From Bryoerythrophyllum caledonicum (taxonomy: Eukaryota; Streptophyta; Bryopsida; Pottiales; Pottiaceae), in NCBI GenBank assembly GCA_963971425.1, contig OZ020519.1, positions 6,588,028 through 6,652,027 on the forward strand: 64,000 nucleotides of DNA, written 5' to 3'. The notes under the pieces were generated by a model. That model saw nothing but the letters and a program-made list of their open reading frames with translations, was not told where the DNA came from and searched no databases. Below are positions 37,660 through 64,000 of this stretch, in pieces. The position numbers and the translations under genes are program-made. How positions within the stretch are numbered: the stretch's first letter is position 1; each line of letters opens with the position of its first letter.

Positions 37660-37893
37660 TTAACCCTTAAACATCACAAGGTGCCGCTGGTGGCCACCGT
37701 ATTCTACATGTACGGTGTCGTATTTGAACATGATAAGGTTCAAATATTGAAATGACTCCCAAATGAAAGATGTTAGTTCAAGATTATTTAATCAAAAGGT
37801 GTAAATCTTGCTAAACTTTAATATATTTTTGGTATCCTACATAGTAAATTATGGTCATGTGTATATGGTTTTAGATTGACGTTTAAGGGTTAA
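37660..37893 (+). mobile_element. T2 MITE, complete, TTAA both sides
   Basis: TTAA|CCCTTAAACATCACAAGG at the left and TTGACGTTTAAGGG|TTAA at the right, 226 bp between. This is the reference copy for T2. Inner words: GGTGCCGCTGGTGGCCACC, GTATTTGAACATGATAAGGT, AAAGGTGTAAATCTTGCT. Confidence 0.8.
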
Positions 37894-54695: not shown

Positions 54696-55504
54696 CTTGG
54701 AAGTACATGCATGAAGGATTGAAATTGGAGTATGGATTTTTAGTTCAAATCCCTTGTTTGTCAAAATATGCTCAATTTAACAGTCAAAGATGAGGACTTA
54801 ACTAGGGATTGCCCGTGCCATTGGTCTTTATAAATAATAGAAATTGGTGTTTATGCGGTCAAACTTAGTCCTTTCATTTTTTAAATGTCTTTTACTTACA
54901 CTTTAATACTTTTATTTTATTAGAATCTCTATATATAAAAGTGGTTTTTGTTTGTTTATGCGTGCGGTCAAGTTATTTACCTTTTCAGAAGATTTCACAC
55001 TTTTCCTTTGCTGCTTTTATTTTATACTTTTTAACCCCATCAAGGACGACGGAGGTTCCACTACGTTGGCTGACAATAGAAAGTTTTGATTTTTAAATAT
55101 AATTATATACAACTTGAAAAGGAAAAAACATATTCCAATGTAGAAATAAGTGATCATCTCAATTTTTAAAATTATATCTTTACTACTCATATATATATAT
55201 ATATATGAATGAACAGGTGGACCTGCCTATTATTCCCAACACGGCAAGGGCAATCTCAAATTAAGTCATAATCAAATCCTAGTCAAGTCCCAATCAAATC
55301 CCACTAAAGTCCTCATCTTCCTCTTCAGAAACTCCGCCTAATATCTCCTAGCAAAGTCCCCGCGATCCATCCAGGTGGCTTCAACGAGATTGCCGCTACT
55401 TTTCAACCTTGCACTATAATCGATTCATTAAAAGCTTTCAGACTCGTACTTGAAAAGTAAAAGCATGTACCAAAATAAAGAAGAACTGATCATGTTTCTA
55501 GGGT
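54696..55504. other. Intergenic with a (TA)n run
   Basis: AT-rich. A short TATATATATATATATATATA run lies at about 55187-55206. No other feature. Confidence 0.4.
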
Positions 55505-55705
55505 TTAACCCTTAAAACGTCAGAAGGTGCCGTAGGTGGCCACTATATTCTACACGCACAATATCGTATTTGAACATGATAAGGTTGAGATATTGAAACG
55601 ACCTCCAAAATGTTCAATCCGAAGGTGTAAGTCTTGGTGTTGGGTATTGTACAGAGTAAAATACGTCCCTGTACGTACATACGGTTCCCGACTGACGTTG
55701 AAGGG
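55505..55705 (+). mobile_element. T2 MITE just upstream of the MYB gene
   Basis: TTAA|CCCTTAAAACGTCAGAAGG at the left, CCCGACTGACGTTGAAGGG|TAAA at the right. It ends 170 bp before the MYB start codon and only 25 bp before the shared leader sequence, so it lies in the promoter. Confidence 0.75.
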
Positions 55706-55730
55706 TAAAGCACGAGGCTGGGTCTTCGAA

Positions 55731-55852
55731 GCTAGGGTTCGAGGGTTTAAGCAGGGTTTAAGGACGAGGATCGGTCTTGGAGAGGACAGAGCGAGAGGGA
55801 AGCAGAGATGGTGAAGTGAGGAGTGAGCTGTGCGGGGGCGCTTCTTTGGGTG
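55731..55852 (+). promoter_or_regulatory. Leader of the MYB gene with a short uORF
   Basis: The sequence GCTAGGGTTCGAGGGTTTAA, then AGAGATGGTGAAGTGAGGAG, GAGCTGTGCGGGGGCG and TTCTTTG, is repeated in diverged form at 59381-59516 before the kinase gene. ATG GTG AAG TGA at 55808-55819 is a four-codon upstream ORF. The region is rich in telo-box-like AGGGTTTA words, common in plant promoters of growth-related genes. A further GATTAGGGTTTAGGG lies directly before the start codon. Confidence 0.7.
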
Positions 55853-55875
55853 ATTAGGGTTTAGGGTCGGAGGCG

Positions 55876-58601
55876 ATGGTGGCGATGGCCCTGGCTGGGG
55901 TGTTGCGGGTGCCGGAGGAGGATGACGAGGAGGACGACCTAGCGGATCTGTTTGACGATGAGTTTTTGATGCACATGGAGTCGTTGAAGCAGGCGTGCCA
56001 GATGATGCCGGGCGCGGAGGTAAGGCTCAAGACCTCAACCGTAGCGTCGTCGTCCAAGTTTGAGGAGGAAGAGTATGAGGAGGAGGGGGACGGGGAAGTC
56101 GATGATGACGATGATGATGATGATGCGCTGCTGTTGTCGATTGAGCGTAGGTTTTTGGGGAAAGGTGGGTTAGGGGCCCGCCCAGGTGGGAAGGGTGGTG
56201 CCACCCGGAAGCGTGGGGAGGTGCAGCCTGGAAGAATTGGGGATGACGATGAGGAGGACGACGATGACGACCTCTTGAGGTCGGTGAAGGAGCGCTGTGG
56301 GGCTCTGGATCTCGTGAAGGCGTCGAAGCACACGAAGACGAGCTTTCCGGATGCGCCGCTGGATGTACAGCCGGTCTCCAGCTTGGAAGGTGATGCGGGA
56401 GGGAAGCACACGACGACGAGCTTTCCGGATGCGCCGCTGGATGTGCAGCCGATTTCCAGCTTGGAGGATGGTGCGGGAGGGGGGGACGACGATCCGCTGC
56501 CGATTTGTAGTTTTCTTCCTGCGCAGCTGGACGATGAGGAGTTTGAGGAGAGTGCGTTGCCGCTCGCTGTCCTCGGGGAGCCTGCGGCGCCGAAGGTGCC
56601 AGACGGCGTGCAGGCAGTTACAGAAGCGTTGTTGAAGAATCGCGCCTGTCAGCAATCGCTTCGAGAGGTTCTTCGCCAGGTGGAGCGGAAGCTGCATGAG
56701 AATCACGAGATGCAGAGACGCGCGGTGTCGTTGGTGGAGTATCAGAAGGCCTGCACTCGGAAATTCTGCGGGTTTACAGAGGTAGCCAACGCGTCTGTGG
56801 AGCTGATCGCCACGAAACCAGCTGCCGCCAGGAGGAAAGGAGGCGGGGAGTTCAAGGTGAAGGGCCCTCCCGAGAATCCAGACGTGGAGGTGTATCGTAA
56901 GCTGCAAAGCCAGCTTCCGGCGGAGTTCAACGTGAAGAAGTGGACGAAGAAGGAGACGCAGGCCCTGGCGAAGGGAGTCCGGCAGCAGCTGCAGGAGATT
57001 CGCGTCCTTGCCATACTGGAAGACTCGGATGAAGAAGAAGGGCAGGACTTCGACACGCAGATGCGGAACATTGGAGAGAGTGAAGAAGAGGAGCTGAAGA
57101 AGGGCTCCTCATCCATTGATTGGAACGAGGTTGCGCGCATCTACGTCAATGGGCGTTCCGCGTGGGAGTGCAAGCTGCAGTGGGAGAACAAGGAGGATCC
57201 AACGCTGAACTCGAAGCCGTGGACCAAAGCTGAAGACAAGAAGCTCCTCGCGACTGTGCAAGCGCACGACATGGTGGAGTGGGCTGCAATTGCTGAGGAG
57301 CTTGACACGCAGAGAACGCCCGCGCAGTGTGCCATTCGCTATCAACGCAGCCTGAACGCCTCAATCCTGCGCAGCAACTGGACTCCCGAAGAAGACCAGG
57401 AGCTCCAGGCAGCAGTGGAGAAGCTCGGAGAGAAAGATTGGCAGACGGTTGCCGCTTGTATGGAAGGCCGGTTAGGCTCCCAATGCATGTCCCGATGGAC
57501 GAAGGTGTTGCACCCAGACCGTCATCGGCGTGGCCGTTGGCTTCCCGAGGAGGACACTCGCCTGAAGTGGGCGGTCTCTGTGTATGGTCCTCGGGGTTGG
57601 AGGAACATCGCCGCGCACGTCCCAGGACGCTCAGATGTGCAGTGCCGGGAGCGCTGGTGCAACGTGCTGGATCCTGCAGTGAAGATCGATGAGTGGACTC
57701 CGCAGGAGGATGCCAAGCTGGAGGATCTCGTTCTCAAGTATGGCCGTCACCGCTGGGCTGCAGTGGGAGCAGAGCTGGGGCGCACAGATAACCAGTGCTT
57801 CCGCCATTGGAAGCTCCTCCACCCTGAGCACGAGATCTCCTTCAAGAAGGACATGGTCATTCTCCGAGCTGCTCTCTCTACCAACTTTGTCGGAAGAGAG
57901 AAGGAGCGACCGGACCTCGGATTCCAGGATTTTCTCCCGCCACCAGGGATTGGAGAGCGCGCATCGAAGGGGGCTCCCAAGCGCAGGACGAGACTCTCCA
58001 AAGAGAAGCCTCCTCCCAAGCCCAGGAAGAGACCACCCTCCAACAAGAGGAAATCACCTGAGCCCTCGTCTGAAGCTTTGGAGACGAACCAGCCCAGTTC
58101 AGAAGTGAATGAGAACCACGTGATGGAGCCCTGCTCGCTCTCTTCAGAAGTGGTGGAGAATCAAGGCGCTGAGCCCTGTTCGAAAGTGGTTCACTCAAGG
58201 AAGAGGCGTGCTCCTCCTCAACCAGGTGCCAGAGGCTCCAAGAAGAGGAAACCTCCTCCTGAAGAAGAAAACCATGAAGCTGCTGCACCGCTGATTGTTT
58301 ATACAAGACGGAAGGATCGATTCTCCAGCAGCTGTGGTAAGTCATCCCTTGACCACAGCAATGAAATATCCAGTGCGGAGAGAGGCACAGTTGAGGAACC
58401 CACATTGAGGAGACATAGGAAGAAGTTGACACTCGCTCCTTCCCAATTGACGTAAGTCTCTTTTTTCAAAATTTTGACCCATTCTTTTTTCATCTATTAT
58501 ATTCTCGTAGCAGAGGTTAGTGCACAATTTTGAAATGCAAATCTAGTGAAAGTCCTTATTATTGCAGGAGTTCTGCATCTACAATTTTTTCCCAGCTCTA
58601 G
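55876..58601 (+). CDS. 4R-MYB / SNAPC4-like transcription factor (MYB4R1 type)
   Basis: Exon 1 (55876-58451) plus a proposed short exon 2 (58568-58601) gives 869 residues. Exon 1 ends AC|GTAAGT. Unspliced it stops at once (TAA inside the donor); spliced, 10-11 residues (SSASTIFSQL) follow before TAG. N-terminal third: very acidic, with Asp/Glu runs and a 26-residue tandem duplication (56326-56481). Residues ~413-443 form a half MYB repeat (IDWNEVARIYVNGRSAWECK). Four full repeats follow: ~445-492 (PWTKAEDKKLLATV), 498-547 (NWTPEEDQELQAAV), 551-600 (RWLPEEDTRLKWAV) and 603-651 (EWTPQEDAKLEDLV). Four and a half repeats is the SNAPC4 layout. SNAPC4 is the subunit of the snRNA-activating complex that binds the promoter element of snRNA genes in the nucleus, and plant MYB4R1 is its likely counterpart. 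The C-terminal part is basic, rich in Lys/Pro, disordered. Function here is inferred from the family. Confidence 0.92.
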
Positions 58602-59222
58602 GGAAGTTCTTTGTCTTGTGTTCCAAGCCTTCTACTTCTGCTCTCACGTCAAATCTAGTTGTTTACTGAAGAGCATTCGATACTGGAAATGAATGAGGAT
58701 TTGCTGGTACTGTACATGGCATAATTATCACATGATTGGACTGTTTACGTGAACATTCTTGCAGGAGAATATTCATCTCATGCTTTTAGGTCAAGTCCAC
58801 CAAGTTCATGCTCTTTGAATCATTGACGTGACAACTTATATGGCTCATTCAAGTGCCATGACGATGCAACATGTTGCACCTCAGTAGGGTACTTTTGTTG
58901 ACGCTCAGGCCATGCGTTTAACTGCAACAATGCACGTCTTGACACTTTGATCCAAAGCCTCAATGTTTCGAGAATGTGCGGTATCATTTGTCTTTGAGAT
59001 AACAAGTTGCGACAGTGCTGTGTATGCTTCCGCATCTGCCTGATTTGGGTTTGAACCAAAGTTGCCGTAAGCACGACAGCCAAGCTCCAATATAAAACAT
59101 AAGAAATATAACAAAGAAATGTGAACAAAAACGAAACAAATAAGGATTAGAAAAATAAAAAATGAAATGGATGAGTAATCTGAAGGAATATCAAACCTCT
59201 ACATGCACGTAAGGTGGAAAAT
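58602..59222. other. Space between the MYB and kinase genes
   Basis: It holds the MYB 3' UTR and probably its terminator. On the minus strand, 58905-59085 reads smoothly as GCRAYGNFGSNPNQADAEAY, TALSQLVISKTNDTAHSRN and EALDQSVKTCIVAVKRMA, then a stop. This could be a last exon or exon relic of an unidentified minus-strand gene. No partner exon was found. Confidence 0.35.
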
Positions 59223-59375
59223 ATGCACACAGAGAGCGATGGCGATGGCGATGACGAGAATGTGAGCTCTCCGCTCGCCATGGACCTCCTGGACGCCGCC
59301 GAGGACGCGCTCTCGGGCGGCCACAACAGTTGCTGCAGTTATTCCCCGTTCGCCGTGGATTTCCGGGACTTTTAG
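59223..59375 (+). CDS. Small GC-rich ORF, 50 codons, unidentified
   Basis: From ATG at 59223 to TAG at 59375. Acidic start (MHTESDGDGDDENVSS), then two related motifs, SPLAMDLLDAAED and SPFAVDFRDF. The composition is coding-like (GC-rich, third-position C/G) and contrasts with the AT-rich DNA just before it. It sits upstream of the kinase leader, so it could be a leftover first exon, a separate peptide gene or a long upstream ORF. No family recognised. Confidence 0.35.
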   Translation: MHTESDGDGDDENVSSPLAMDLLDAAEDALSGGHNSCCSYSPFAVDFRDF

Positions 59376-59380
59376 GGTTT

Positions 59381-59516
59381 GCTAGGGTTTAAGGGTTTGA
59401 GGGTTTAAGGGTTTAGGCAGGAGGATTGTTTTTTGAAGCTTCGACAGAGAGGCGAATTAGAGATGGTGAAGTGAGGAGTGCCAGAATGCAAGCTGTGCGG
59501 GGGCGGTTCTTTGTGT
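59381..59516 (+). promoter_or_regulatory. Leader of the kinase gene, copy of the MYB leader
   Basis: GCTAGGGTTTAAGGGTTTGA and further AGGGTTTA words (telo-box-like), then GACAGAGAGG, AGAGATGGTGAAGTGAGGAG, and after an 11-base insert GCTGTGCGGGGGCG and TTCTTTG. It matches 55731-55852. The uORF ATG GTG AAG TGA is at 59463-59474. The insert CCAGAATGCAA supplies the kinase start codon (59486), which the MYB copy lacks. Confidence 0.7.
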
Positions 59517-62403
59517 ATAGTTCGCTGTACAGGGACGTGATGGCGTCGGCGGTGGTGCAGGCGAGGGTCTTTGTTGCGGGGGTGCCAATGGAGGTAGTGC
59601 GCAAGGGGAGGTGTTCGGACGTGCTGGTTTCGGAGAGGCGGGTTGTGGCGGTCGGGCGGGCGGCTTCGGGGCTTCGTTCTTGCAATGCGAAGCGGTGGGA
59701 CGGCGAGGGGTTTGCGAGGTCGGGTTTCGGGAGTCTTGCGCGGGGGTTGAGAGCTTTTGACGTGAGTGCGGGCACTCGGGAGGTTGTGGGGGAGATTGGA
59801 GCTGCGCATTCGGAGCTTGAGGGAGCAGGGAGTGAAGAAGCGAATGCCGTTGTTGCAGAAGCGGATGCAGTTGTGGCAGAGGTGGACCTTGCTGGTGAGG
59901 CGTAAACCCTTTTTCTATGGAAGAGGTTTGAGTTTTGGAGCTTTCTTGCTGACCCGAAAGTTTATCTTGTGTGTGGCAGGAAGAATGCGAGAGCGAAGAC
60001 GACGGTCCCTGGGTGCAGGCGCTGGTCCACTTCCTGATCTGCTAACTGTTCCTGGAATTGGACCTCGCAACATGGAGAAGCTGGTTTTGAAAGGAATTGC
60101 AAAGTTGGATGAGCTGAAGCAGCTGTACCGGGACAAGGTAGGTGTTGGCTCTGGTCGTTGTTGGAGCAAATGTAACGAGAAGTAATGTTGATCTCTTTGT
60201 TAGGATGTGCTCTCGTGCTTCGCCGAAGATGATTTGTGTCGTCTCTTCCTAAATTTGGGGAAGGTATCTTTATTGCAAAGTAATTCTCTGATTTTTTTGT
60301 TTTGTGTCTTGAAATGTGTTTGTAGTTCAGGGATAACGGCTGCGAAAAGATGGTGGAGTACTTGCGGGGCTCAGTAGGTCTTCACAAGCACCATGCTGCT
60401 AGCATCACCAACTACATCAGGGACAAGGTGGAGGCAGAGTTGGCTCCCAAGGATGAAGGAACTCGCCAGAGAAAACGCTTGACATTTTGTGTAGAAGGTA
60501 ACATCAGCGTCGGCAAGTCTACATTCTTGCAGAGAATCGCAAGTGAGACCCTTGAATTGCAAGACCTTGTGGAGGTATCACTGGATTGTCTCTCCTTGAG
60601 GTTTTTACTTGCAATTACCATCTTCCATCTTGTAGTCAGTTAGATCATGTTTAAGGTTGATCGACTTTGCTTGAGAATTGAGAGTTGATTCTCTTGCTAA
60701 TGTGCTCCTGACCTTGGGAGTTGCATTTCAGATCGTCCCTGAACCCGTCGGGAAGTGGCAGGACGTAGGTGCCAACCATCACAATATTCTGGAGTCCTTT
60801 TACCGGGAGCCAGAACGATATGCCTACACGTTTCAGAACTACGTATTTGTGACCCGTCTAATGCAGGAACGAGAGTCTGCTCATGGGCTAAAGCCTTTAC
60901 GTTTGATGGAGCGAAGTGTTTTCAGTGACCGAATGGTAAGCCCTCTGACTTCCTGAAGGGAATGTTTCAGTGTACATTTATGTAGTATTGATCCCTCTTC
61001 GTTTCATGCGCAGGTCTTTGTACGTGCTGTCCACGAGGCCAAGTGGATGAGCGAGATGGAAATTAGCATATATGATTCATGGTTCAATCCAGTTGTGTCG
61101 GAGCTTCCAGGGTTGGTTCCTGATGCCTTTATTTACCTTCGGGCCAGCCCTGACACTTGCATGCAGCGTTTACATTCTCGAAAGAGGCAAGTCATAACAC
61201 CCTTTCAATCTATTTTTCTATAAATACGTGGATTTACACCCTATCTCAATCAGATGTTACTTGTTTCACACTTCTTTTGTTGAACGCTTTTTGAGCGTTT
61301 CACACATTCTTGTGGCTTGTTTTTGTCCTGAGCATGTGTTAGGGGGGCACCCACGTTGTATTCCTAATGCACGCGGTATTGCAGGCCAGAAGAACAAGGT
61401 GTAAGCTTAGAATATCTTCAAGGGCTTCATGAAAAGCATGAGCAATGGCTTTTACCAGCGCAGACTAGCAACGGGGGCATTCTTTCTGTTAGTCCGGCGC
61501 TCAGAGAGCCAATGTCACCTCGGATTCGCAATCGTGTGTTCTATCTGGAGGGCGACCATGTGCACTCATGCATCCAAAAGGTTAGTCGCTCAGAACCTTA
61601 CTTTCCGTGCATTTGTTGCAATCCTCAAATGGCGGCAGCAATGTGTGTTTTGGACGACCAGTGCATAGTGTGCTTTTGACGATGTGTATAAATCATATGA
61701 CAAGTCTCTGATTGTCAAGTGTTGCTGGTTTGATTTGCCACTACCACCGAGGCACACGTTTTATCAATTTTCTCTTCAGAACTGGCACTAGTGATATTAA
61801 CCACTGAACGGCTGAGAAGATTCAAACTTGTTCCATGATTCTCTTTCAGTTTGTCACTACCACTGAAGTAACTGTGTTTGGCATGTTACGTTCCTCTTTT
61901 AGCGTCATATTTGGCGAACCAATCGTGTGACTAAAGGTTCAAGCCTAGTTTACACATGAATGTTAGCTTTACTGTCGCATTCTTTGGTGCAGGTTCCTGC
62001 TCTGATGTTGGACTGTGATACCAACATCGATTTCAACAAGGACATTGATGCGAAGACAGAGTAAGTGATCAAGTTGCATGCTTTTAATTAATCTTTTGAT
62101 CAAGGACGTTTCTACTTCAGATTCAGTTACGTCTATGATAATTCCTGACCTGGTTTCATCTCATTTGTCACCTAGTTCTTGACTGCTGAATGTTCTCCTG
62201 ATTGCATATGAAGATATGCAAGACAAGTAGCGGAATTCTTTGAGTACGTGCATCAAACCAAGGACATCCAACTGGGATCTGGAAGTCAGGTGGTGGTTCC
62301 ACGCACAGGAGGCTTGTTAGGACCCGACGGAGCTCAACTTCTTGGCAACGCGCACCTGGACGCAGCGGATCTCAGTCGGCGGATGTCTTCTCTTCGTGTG
62401 TAA
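59486..62403 (+). CDS. Deoxyribonucleoside kinase with N-terminal HhH region, nine exons
   Basis: Exons: 59486-59894, 59980-60137, 60204-60263, 60326-60574, 60732-60935, 61014-61186, 61385-61580, 61993-62060, 62214-62403. The frame is open throughout, 568 residues, near the ~580 of the Arabidopsis dNK. It phosphorylates deoxynucleosides with ATP for dNTP salvage. Exon 1 (1-136) is Arg/Ala/Val-rich with few acids at the start (MQAVRGRFFVYSSLY), a likely organelle-targeting region. Residues ~155-190 (LLTVPGIGPRNMEKLVLKGI) form a helix-hairpin-helix-like motif. The kinase core has a P-loop at 267-275 (GNISVGKST), the ERS motif at 352-354 (in MERSVFSDRM), SPDTCMQRLHSRKR as substrate/lid region, and YLEGDHVHSC. 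Intron 6 uses a GC donor (AG|GCAAGT); the others are GT-AG. The start was chosen as the first ATG of this frame; an upstream TTG is ignored. Location in plastid or mitochondrion is inferred. Confidence 0.94.
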
Positions 62404-64000
62404 ATGGCATACTCTCTTCCCCTCTTCACAAATTTCTCATGATTCAGGACCGAGAGCTCACACTTCTTTTTTTTAACGTTTTGTACAGATAAACGTTTTC
62501 ACAATCCTTTTCAATGTCATATCATGAACTGATATCAGTGGTTTCTACGCAGTGCTCTCAAACCTTTTGGGTGTAGGAAGGATTGTGTGAGGTCTCTAGA
62601 ATAGACCTGACTCTTTGTAAAATACCCCACTAATTTCTATGAAGATTTCAGACATTGTACGAGCGACAGATTCTTTGAAGATTGCTTCAAAACTTGCACC
62701 CAAGTCTTAAAAAGCAGATAAAAGTCATATTCCGGTGTAGAAGTACATTTTTAGGTGTTTTGAGAAAGAGAAAGTATCCCCATAGTCACTAAAAGAACTT
62801 CACCCATGAGCATGTGAAGCCTCTGGCTTACAAATAAGCTTTTCATTTGCTTAATATATATCATTTGCATACTATGTCTCTCCATTAGTGTTTTTATTAT
62901 ATTTAATCCTTCATTGAAGTGGCCACTTAATACTGATAGTCTTTTGTATCTCTAACCTTCATATAAAAAACACTCTTCTGTTGTTTCACCAATCGCCAAT
63001 GTCTACACAACAAGCATTGCCTTATTGATTAACCTTTACTAAGAAGCAAAACGGCCATAGAAACCAATGCAAAATGCTCTATGTTTAGAATTTGAACAAA
63101 GTACAATATAAACTTGGGAAATATGCATGGTGAGATTTCTCACCCTGGATGTATTTCCGTTTACAAATCTCGCCCTCCTTTGGCAATCTATAGCGGGTCT
63201 TTTTGGTTGACACAAGATGCCCATCCTCTAAATTTCAAACTTTCAGGAAAACTCTAATATCTGTAACTTATGAACACATTTTTCAAATGCACATGTGATT
63301 GTCACACAATTTATTTGAGAGTGCACACTAAAAAAATAGTGCCATATCTTTCGTATCCTTGTCCCTTCAAATCTCCACAAGGACAAAAATGTCAGGTAAG
63401 AAAGCACTTAATAGAGTTATGTGTAGAGGCAAGCAATGATAATATTCTCAATTTTGATCAATGAAATCAACCCTAAATAGCTCCACCTTCTGTTATGAAC
63501 TCAAAGAAGAAAAGGCAGCTCAGATTCATGGTACAACGTGAGCTCTCACTTCACAAATAACTCTAATATCTTATAAAATTCGAAGCGACTCGTCCCAAAC
63601 AATCATCCGGAAGAATCCAAAACCATGTAAAAAAAGAAGGAAATCTTACAAGTGTGGTGCAGTCAAGCTCCTTGAGAAGGTAGAAAACCAGTGCCCACCG
63701 AAGTCGACCTCAAATCCTGTTGAATACACAAAAAGGTCAAGCGAATCCCACATCAACGCGGCAACGGTCGACGATGATGCAACCATACTTCTGAAGGATT
63801 CACCACCAAGCTCTTCCACATCTATTAAGAGTGAGATAAGACTAGTATTGTAAACAAAAAGAGGGGGTGAAACTTAGGGTGGAACTCCTGCTTCAGTGTT
63901 GATAGGTTTATGGAGAAGGTAAGCTAACCTCGGCGATGGTAGGGATGGTAGAAACCAGTGCGCACCAAAGTTGACCTGTTGAATGCACACAAGGTGAAGC
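62404..64000. other. Downstream of the kinase gene, diverged direct repeat at edge
   Basis: 62404-63650 holds the kinase 3' UTR and AT-rich DNA without signal. At 63677-63740 and again at 63948-64000 a ~55 bp unit recurs (AGAAAACCAGTGCCCACCGA and AGAAACCAGTGCGCACCAAA, then GACCT, GTTGAATACACA / GTTGAATGCACA). The second copy reaches the window edge, so this may be the start of a larger array or gene family. Confidence 0.45.

Follow-up and report, generated by a model that had tools for sequence, protein, structure and literature searches.

The window analysed here, a stretch of 64,000 nucleotides at C7:6588028-6652027 of a 437-Mb moss genome (G000), holds two neighbouring genes, one for a SNAPC4-like MYB protein and one for a deoxynucleoside kinase, each of which is preceded by a copy of the same short segment. 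The features concerned are listed by window position.

55499..55708, no strand assigned: dispersed repeat, about 200 bp long and by eye similar to a MITE, with imperfect inverted ends; adjoins the SNAPC4 copy on its left, right edge set by eye
55734..55851, forward: SNAPC4 copy of the shared leader segment, with AGGGTT words at 55734, 55742 and 55753, uORF, 22-bp tail
55808..55819, forward: uORF ATG GTG AAG TGA (MVK) in the SNAPC4 leader; context GCAGAG/ATGG
55876..58455, forward: SNAPC4-like 4R-MYB coding region, 859 aa in one open frame
59236..59376, forward: kinase upstream block, common to the C11 kinase and absent at SNAPC4
59392..59516, forward: kinase copy of the shared leader segment, with AGGGTT words at 59392, 59400 and 59408, uORF, first kinase codons
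59463..59474, forward: uORF ATG GTG AAG TGA (MVK) in the kinase leader; context TTAGAG/ATGG, stop TAA in the C11 copy
59486..62400, forward: deoxynucleoside kinase gene, exons within the span; the last match to P0029 ends at C7:6650427 (62400)
59486..59539, forward: probable in-frame N-terminal extension from ATG1, MQAVRGRFFVYSSLYRDV
59540..59542, forward: ATG2; the starts of moss relatives align near here, with weak alignment at that end

Two unrelated genes with a common leader

The upstream gene, named SNAPC4-like in the initial annotation, encodes a protein with five stretches of PF00249; its matches include Marchantia Mp4R-MYB1 and moss proteins, the nearest being from Ceratodon purpureus (70%), followed among the named mosses by one from Sphagnum. 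The frame stops at TTGACGTAAGTC (58440-58470), where GTAAGT is a possible splice donor, so that a further exon may hold the final codons. To the left of its leader, the dispersed repeat has inverted arms (55498-55516 and 55698-55716) that are 74% complementary, and has relatives in the window near 37660, 37884, 3085-2956, 51777 and 17942, the longest of which covers 55499-55699. The kinase was modelled with exons 1-6, of which exon 3 (60204-60263), absent from the moss-like kinases P0029 and P0030, is doubtful and probably intronic; the query for the homologue search included it. PF01712 is present in the listed homologues (120 of 683), as a domain precomputed for those proteins, and no kinase named from Ceratodon or Physcomitrium occurs among the matches listed (these 120 of 683 and a further listing of 51). 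One kinase intron, 61187-61384, is apparently of the GC-AG type (AAAGAG/GCAAGT ... GCAG). RNA families and tRNAs were looked for across the window, and none was found.

The initial annotation had proposed that the leaders of these two genes align even though their coding regions are unrelated. Both points hold: a five-MYB-stretch protein stands beside a kinase with PF01712 homologues, and blastn inside the window aligns 55734-55851 with 59392-59516 at 74.4% identity over 129 columns (E 3.6e-17), and the local alignment scores 124, whereas 1000 dinucleotide shuffles reach no more than 37. The common part runs from the telo-box cluster through to TTCTTTG, and the two uORFs lie 3655 bases apart, in agreement with the proposed copying over about 3.65 kb. 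Although the local-alignment optimum extends weakly on to 55918/59594, the sequence downstream of the segment (55852-56100) scores 28 and 23 against shuffle maxima of 33 and 35 (300 shuffles), which is not significant alone, and stretches upstream (55200-55503) score inside the shuffle range. Significant similarity is therefore limited to the leader segment. What had been described as a copied promoter and leader is thus a copied telo-box cluster and leader; the common part is not a whole promoter, because the left flanks differ, consisting of the dispersed repeat at SNAPC4 and of a block shared only with C11 at the kinase.

Copies, age and direction of copying

We searched the genome with each leader, the counts obtained being lower bounds. 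With the SNAPC4 leader as query, at least two places were matched, namely itself and the kinase leader. The 5' region of the kinase gave at least 11 matches, which comprise itself, the SNAPC4 leader, a kinase paralogue on C11, a 29-bp piece next to the match at that paralogue, and seven telomere-like arrays (four on C640 and one each on C1, C6 and C12). Three copies of the segment are found, two on C7 and one on C11, each before a gene. The 29-bp piece (C11:3249162-3249190; L023 9163-9191) is a telo-box array with AGCAGG at its end, and resembles the beginning of the kinase leader at 93%. It precedes the C11 leader by about 220 bp, within a short stretch that has no counterpart in C7, and hints that the telo-box array is prone to local copying.

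Similarity between the C11 kinase and the window extends from about 59185 to 62726, and further kinase copies comprise a gene on C4 and a truncated relic on C14. The relic (C14:18986000-18995000, minus strand; L042) is about 85% like the window's gene and matches only 59912-59972, 60231-60450 and 60449-61389, the last of these stretches being preceded by an insertion of about 2.6 kb. The C11 gene has about 400 bp extra relative to C7 (L024, about 1797-2226), in the intron before the exon corresponding to 61014. Between C7 and C11, the kinase introns have diverged by 0.100-0.113 and the leader (59377-59460) by 0.114. The upstream block 59236-59376, which looks coding, was considered as a gene and rejected, having no Pfam match in the one frame scanned, a net C7/C11 indel of 4 (counted by eye) and intron-like divergence.

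Over the 103 columns in which all three copies have a base, the SNAPC4 copy carries 7 private changes, the C7 kinase copy 6 and the C11 kinase copy 8, with one column in which all differ; pairwise, 14 columns differ between SNAPC4 and C7, 16 between SNAPC4 and C11, and 15 between C7 and C11. This star-like pattern indicates similar ages for the SNAPC4 copy and the C7/C11 kinase pair, and would date the copying to about the time of the kinase duplication, subject to the noise that some seven changes per branch entail. As to the donor, the kinase segment sits in a longer 5' block common to C7 and C11 (59236-59539), whereas the SNAPC4 segment is an island between the dispersed repeat and unrelated sequence. 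It is mainly this island-like setting that inclines us, by a small margin, towards the kinase as donor; the synonymous C7/C11 changes in the first kinase codons, described below, point weakly the same way.

We consider it probable that the shared leader is an old local copy, with kinase to SNAPC4 the slightly favoured direction, that supplied SNAPC4 with a telo-box/5'-UTR module. At roughly the time of the kinase duplication to C11, about 120 bp holding the telo-box array, the start of the 5'-UTR including its MVK uORF, and some 22 bp that serve the kinase as its first codons would have been copied across about 3.65 kb, by a small templated insertion from a nearby template during break repair or by an equivalent local duplication; telo-box words at both places perhaps helped. 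By eye, the junctions fall in telo-box words and in diverged sequence. The copy is plausibly an ordinary module of its kind, with transcription presumably starting just downstream of the telo-boxes, and the segment could well bring along its own start site and leader. In Physcomitrium, telo-boxes are described as more frequent in the last 50 bp before transcription starts (PMC12616469), so that both uORFs would fall inside transcripts, a placement that we infer from telo-box position. The MVK uORF would then be translated, and ribosomes would reinitiate at, or leak to, the SNAPC4 start or kinase ATG2; the SNAPC4 leader, lacking the 10-nt piece that holds the kinase ATG, is spared a second upstream ORF.

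The reverse direction is the strongest competitor, less probable but still to be taken seriously: the kinase ancestral to those on C7 and C11 would have received the SNAPC4 leader and would then have gained a new in-frame ATG through an insertion of 10 bp. The distances among the three copies fit this order equally well, and related kinases of mosses, like the one on C4, begin close to ATG2 and show no MQAVRGRFF, so the extension may be new in the lineage. The contrast between an isolated segment at SNAPC4 and a segment within a longer shared block at the kinases argues against it, as does a second close SNAPC4 copy in the assembly, on the small contig C381 (L031 6601-9657, one open frame), which is without the leader; no kinase similarity occurs across that contig's 16.8 kb. 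In a tree of 10 proteins the C381 protein pairs with the relative P0005 (support 90/87) and the C7 protein with Ceratodon (support 98/97), and the C381 gene is possibly assembly contamination or an old paralogue. Because the older C4 kinase also lacks the leader, either gene could be the donor. The C4 gene, which is P0030-like and begins MPPTIF, has neither ATGGTGAAG nor GCTGTGCGG in its 600 bp upstream and a single AGGGTT 375 bp before the start; it may be too diverged to show a leader. Beside the C11 kinase, a search of 18.5 kb for SNAPC4 gave nothing beyond the leader, telo-box words and chance matches.

The MVK uORF and the kinase start

Both leaders carry ATGGTGAAGTGA, at 55808-55819 and 59463-59474, just as the initial annotation had reported for its four-codon uORF. 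In the C11 leader the reading is ATG GTG AAG TAA, preceded by an extra short uORF. The uORF is the sole ATG ahead of the SNAPC4 start within 55715-55880, while in 59377-59545 the kinase has the uORF, ATG1 (59486) and ATG2 (59540). From uORF stop to main start there are 56 nt in SNAPC4, and 11 nt to ATG1 or 65 nt to ATG2 in the kinase; at these distances, reinitiation would favour ATG2.

ATG1 itself had been attributed to an 11-base difference between the leaders. It does lie in an extra piece, CCAGAATGCA, but this indel is 10 nt long, and relatives start near 59540. For P0029, P0030 and P0038 (from Sphagnum), all moss-like kinases, alignment to the window protein begins at about ATG2 and is weak at that end. 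Together with the C4 start, this alignment suggests that ATG1 probably gives an N-terminal extension of the kinase. Between C7 and C11, codons 1-10 after ATG1 show four substitutions, all third-position synonymous, and the next indel is 12 nt, which suggests that the extension is translated and that ATG1 may also be used. The argument is weak, because the entire exon 1 changes at roughly the rate of the introns (C7/C11 mismatches over the three codon positions, 10/10/17).

If the leader had been kept for its function, the MVK uORF and the bases that follow would tune the translation of both genes jointly, a reading that we regard as unlikely. From the uORF onwards (45 columns) the SNAPC4 copy has no private change, whereas the 58 columns ahead of it hold 7 (Fisher 0.017), but the cut was made post hoc, and the same split over all branches together gives 0.094. 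The change of stop from TGA to TAA in C11 leaves the peptide intact, and the start context looks strong by the context rule; across the uORF and spacer (59461-59485), however, C7 and C11 differ at 4 of 25 positions, above the introns. In a neutral simulation at the C7/C11 divergence, the uORF was kept in all three lineages with a probability of 0.27 with substitutions and 0.13 with indels as well. Conservation thus does not exceed the neutral expectation and is weak evidence of function, and the leader RNAs fold no more stably than shuffles (z 1.09 and -0.84).

Mobile elements, convergence and meaning

A further possibility, that a dispersed mobile element including the segment was inserted ahead of both genes, is very improbable and largely refuted by the copy searches. 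A dispersed repeat adjoins the SNAPC4 copy, and there are weak matches of 19-22 bp in multicopy families, but a dispersed repeat with many copies, which the initial annotation had named as fatal to its proposal, does not emerge from the whole-segment searches, which yield just three copies as a lower bound. The 19-bp pattern GAGATGGTGAAGTGAGGAG occurs exactly twice in the genome, both times inside the window, and with up to 2 mismatches at 55 places (8 for the reversed-pattern control). A blastn comparison of ten of the 53 further places (L005-L014) with the leaders gave a match for L005 alone, over 20 bp; among L005, L006, L007, L009 and L010, read by eye, L006, L007 and L009 resemble one multicopy family. 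The 22-bp tail pattern, with up to 3 mismatches, occurs at 52 places (control 1), three of them the known copies; three of the 49 others (L046-L048) have about 20 bp in common with the leaders and are mutually about 96% identical over kilobases. Convergence of two independent, look-alike telo-box leaders, for which one could cite the enrichment of telo-boxes before ribosomal-protein genes of land plants including Physcomitrella (PMC3212954), deserves almost no credence and is refuted by the shuffle control, in which the leaders without their telo-box words score 93 against at most 38 in 1000 shuffles.

The old local copy of a leader, with the kinase as the slightly favoured donor, is real as a copy and is an ordinary small-scale genome rearrangement; a role in control is putative only. 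Were the captured leader to have put a presumed snRNA-gene transcription factor under the transcriptional and translational control of a nucleotide-salvage kinase, with the kinase uORF also setting the ratio of the long (ATG1) to the short (ATG2) form, the two would form a co-regulated pair of unrelated genes, and we give this reading only an outside chance. The locus shows cleanly how local copying can spread a gene leader, and in it a third copy at a gene duplicate serves as a yardstick of age, and the pair would be a natural leader-swap experiment if expression data showed co-regulation. Within the search wording used, no leader or promoter duplication of this kind was found in the literature.

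Among known systems, the closest in process are the templated, or filler, insertions that Arabidopsis and tobacco are described as acquiring in double-strand break repair (PMC5217109), in which, as here, a short stretch is copied from elsewhere; unlike these, the moss copy is about 120 bp long, old and situated on a gene leader, with junctions too diverged for microhomology to be read. A gene duplication that carries its leader along accounts for the C11 copy, which belongs to the C7/C11 kinase pair, whereas the SNAPC4 copy arrived without a gene. In-frame upstream AUGs that extend a protein (NTEs) are a known class (PMC7889888), in which the putative ATG1 extension of the kinase would find its place. 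The telo-box 5' regions described for plant genes likewise have clustered AGGGTTT words close before the start codon (PMC3212954, PMC12616469), but one of the moss clusters is a copy of its neighbour's. Similarly, the MVK uORF resembles other short eukaryotic uORFs in consisting of an AUG and a stop in a presumed leader, and differs from them in being common to two unrelated neighbours through copying rather than through gene ancestry.
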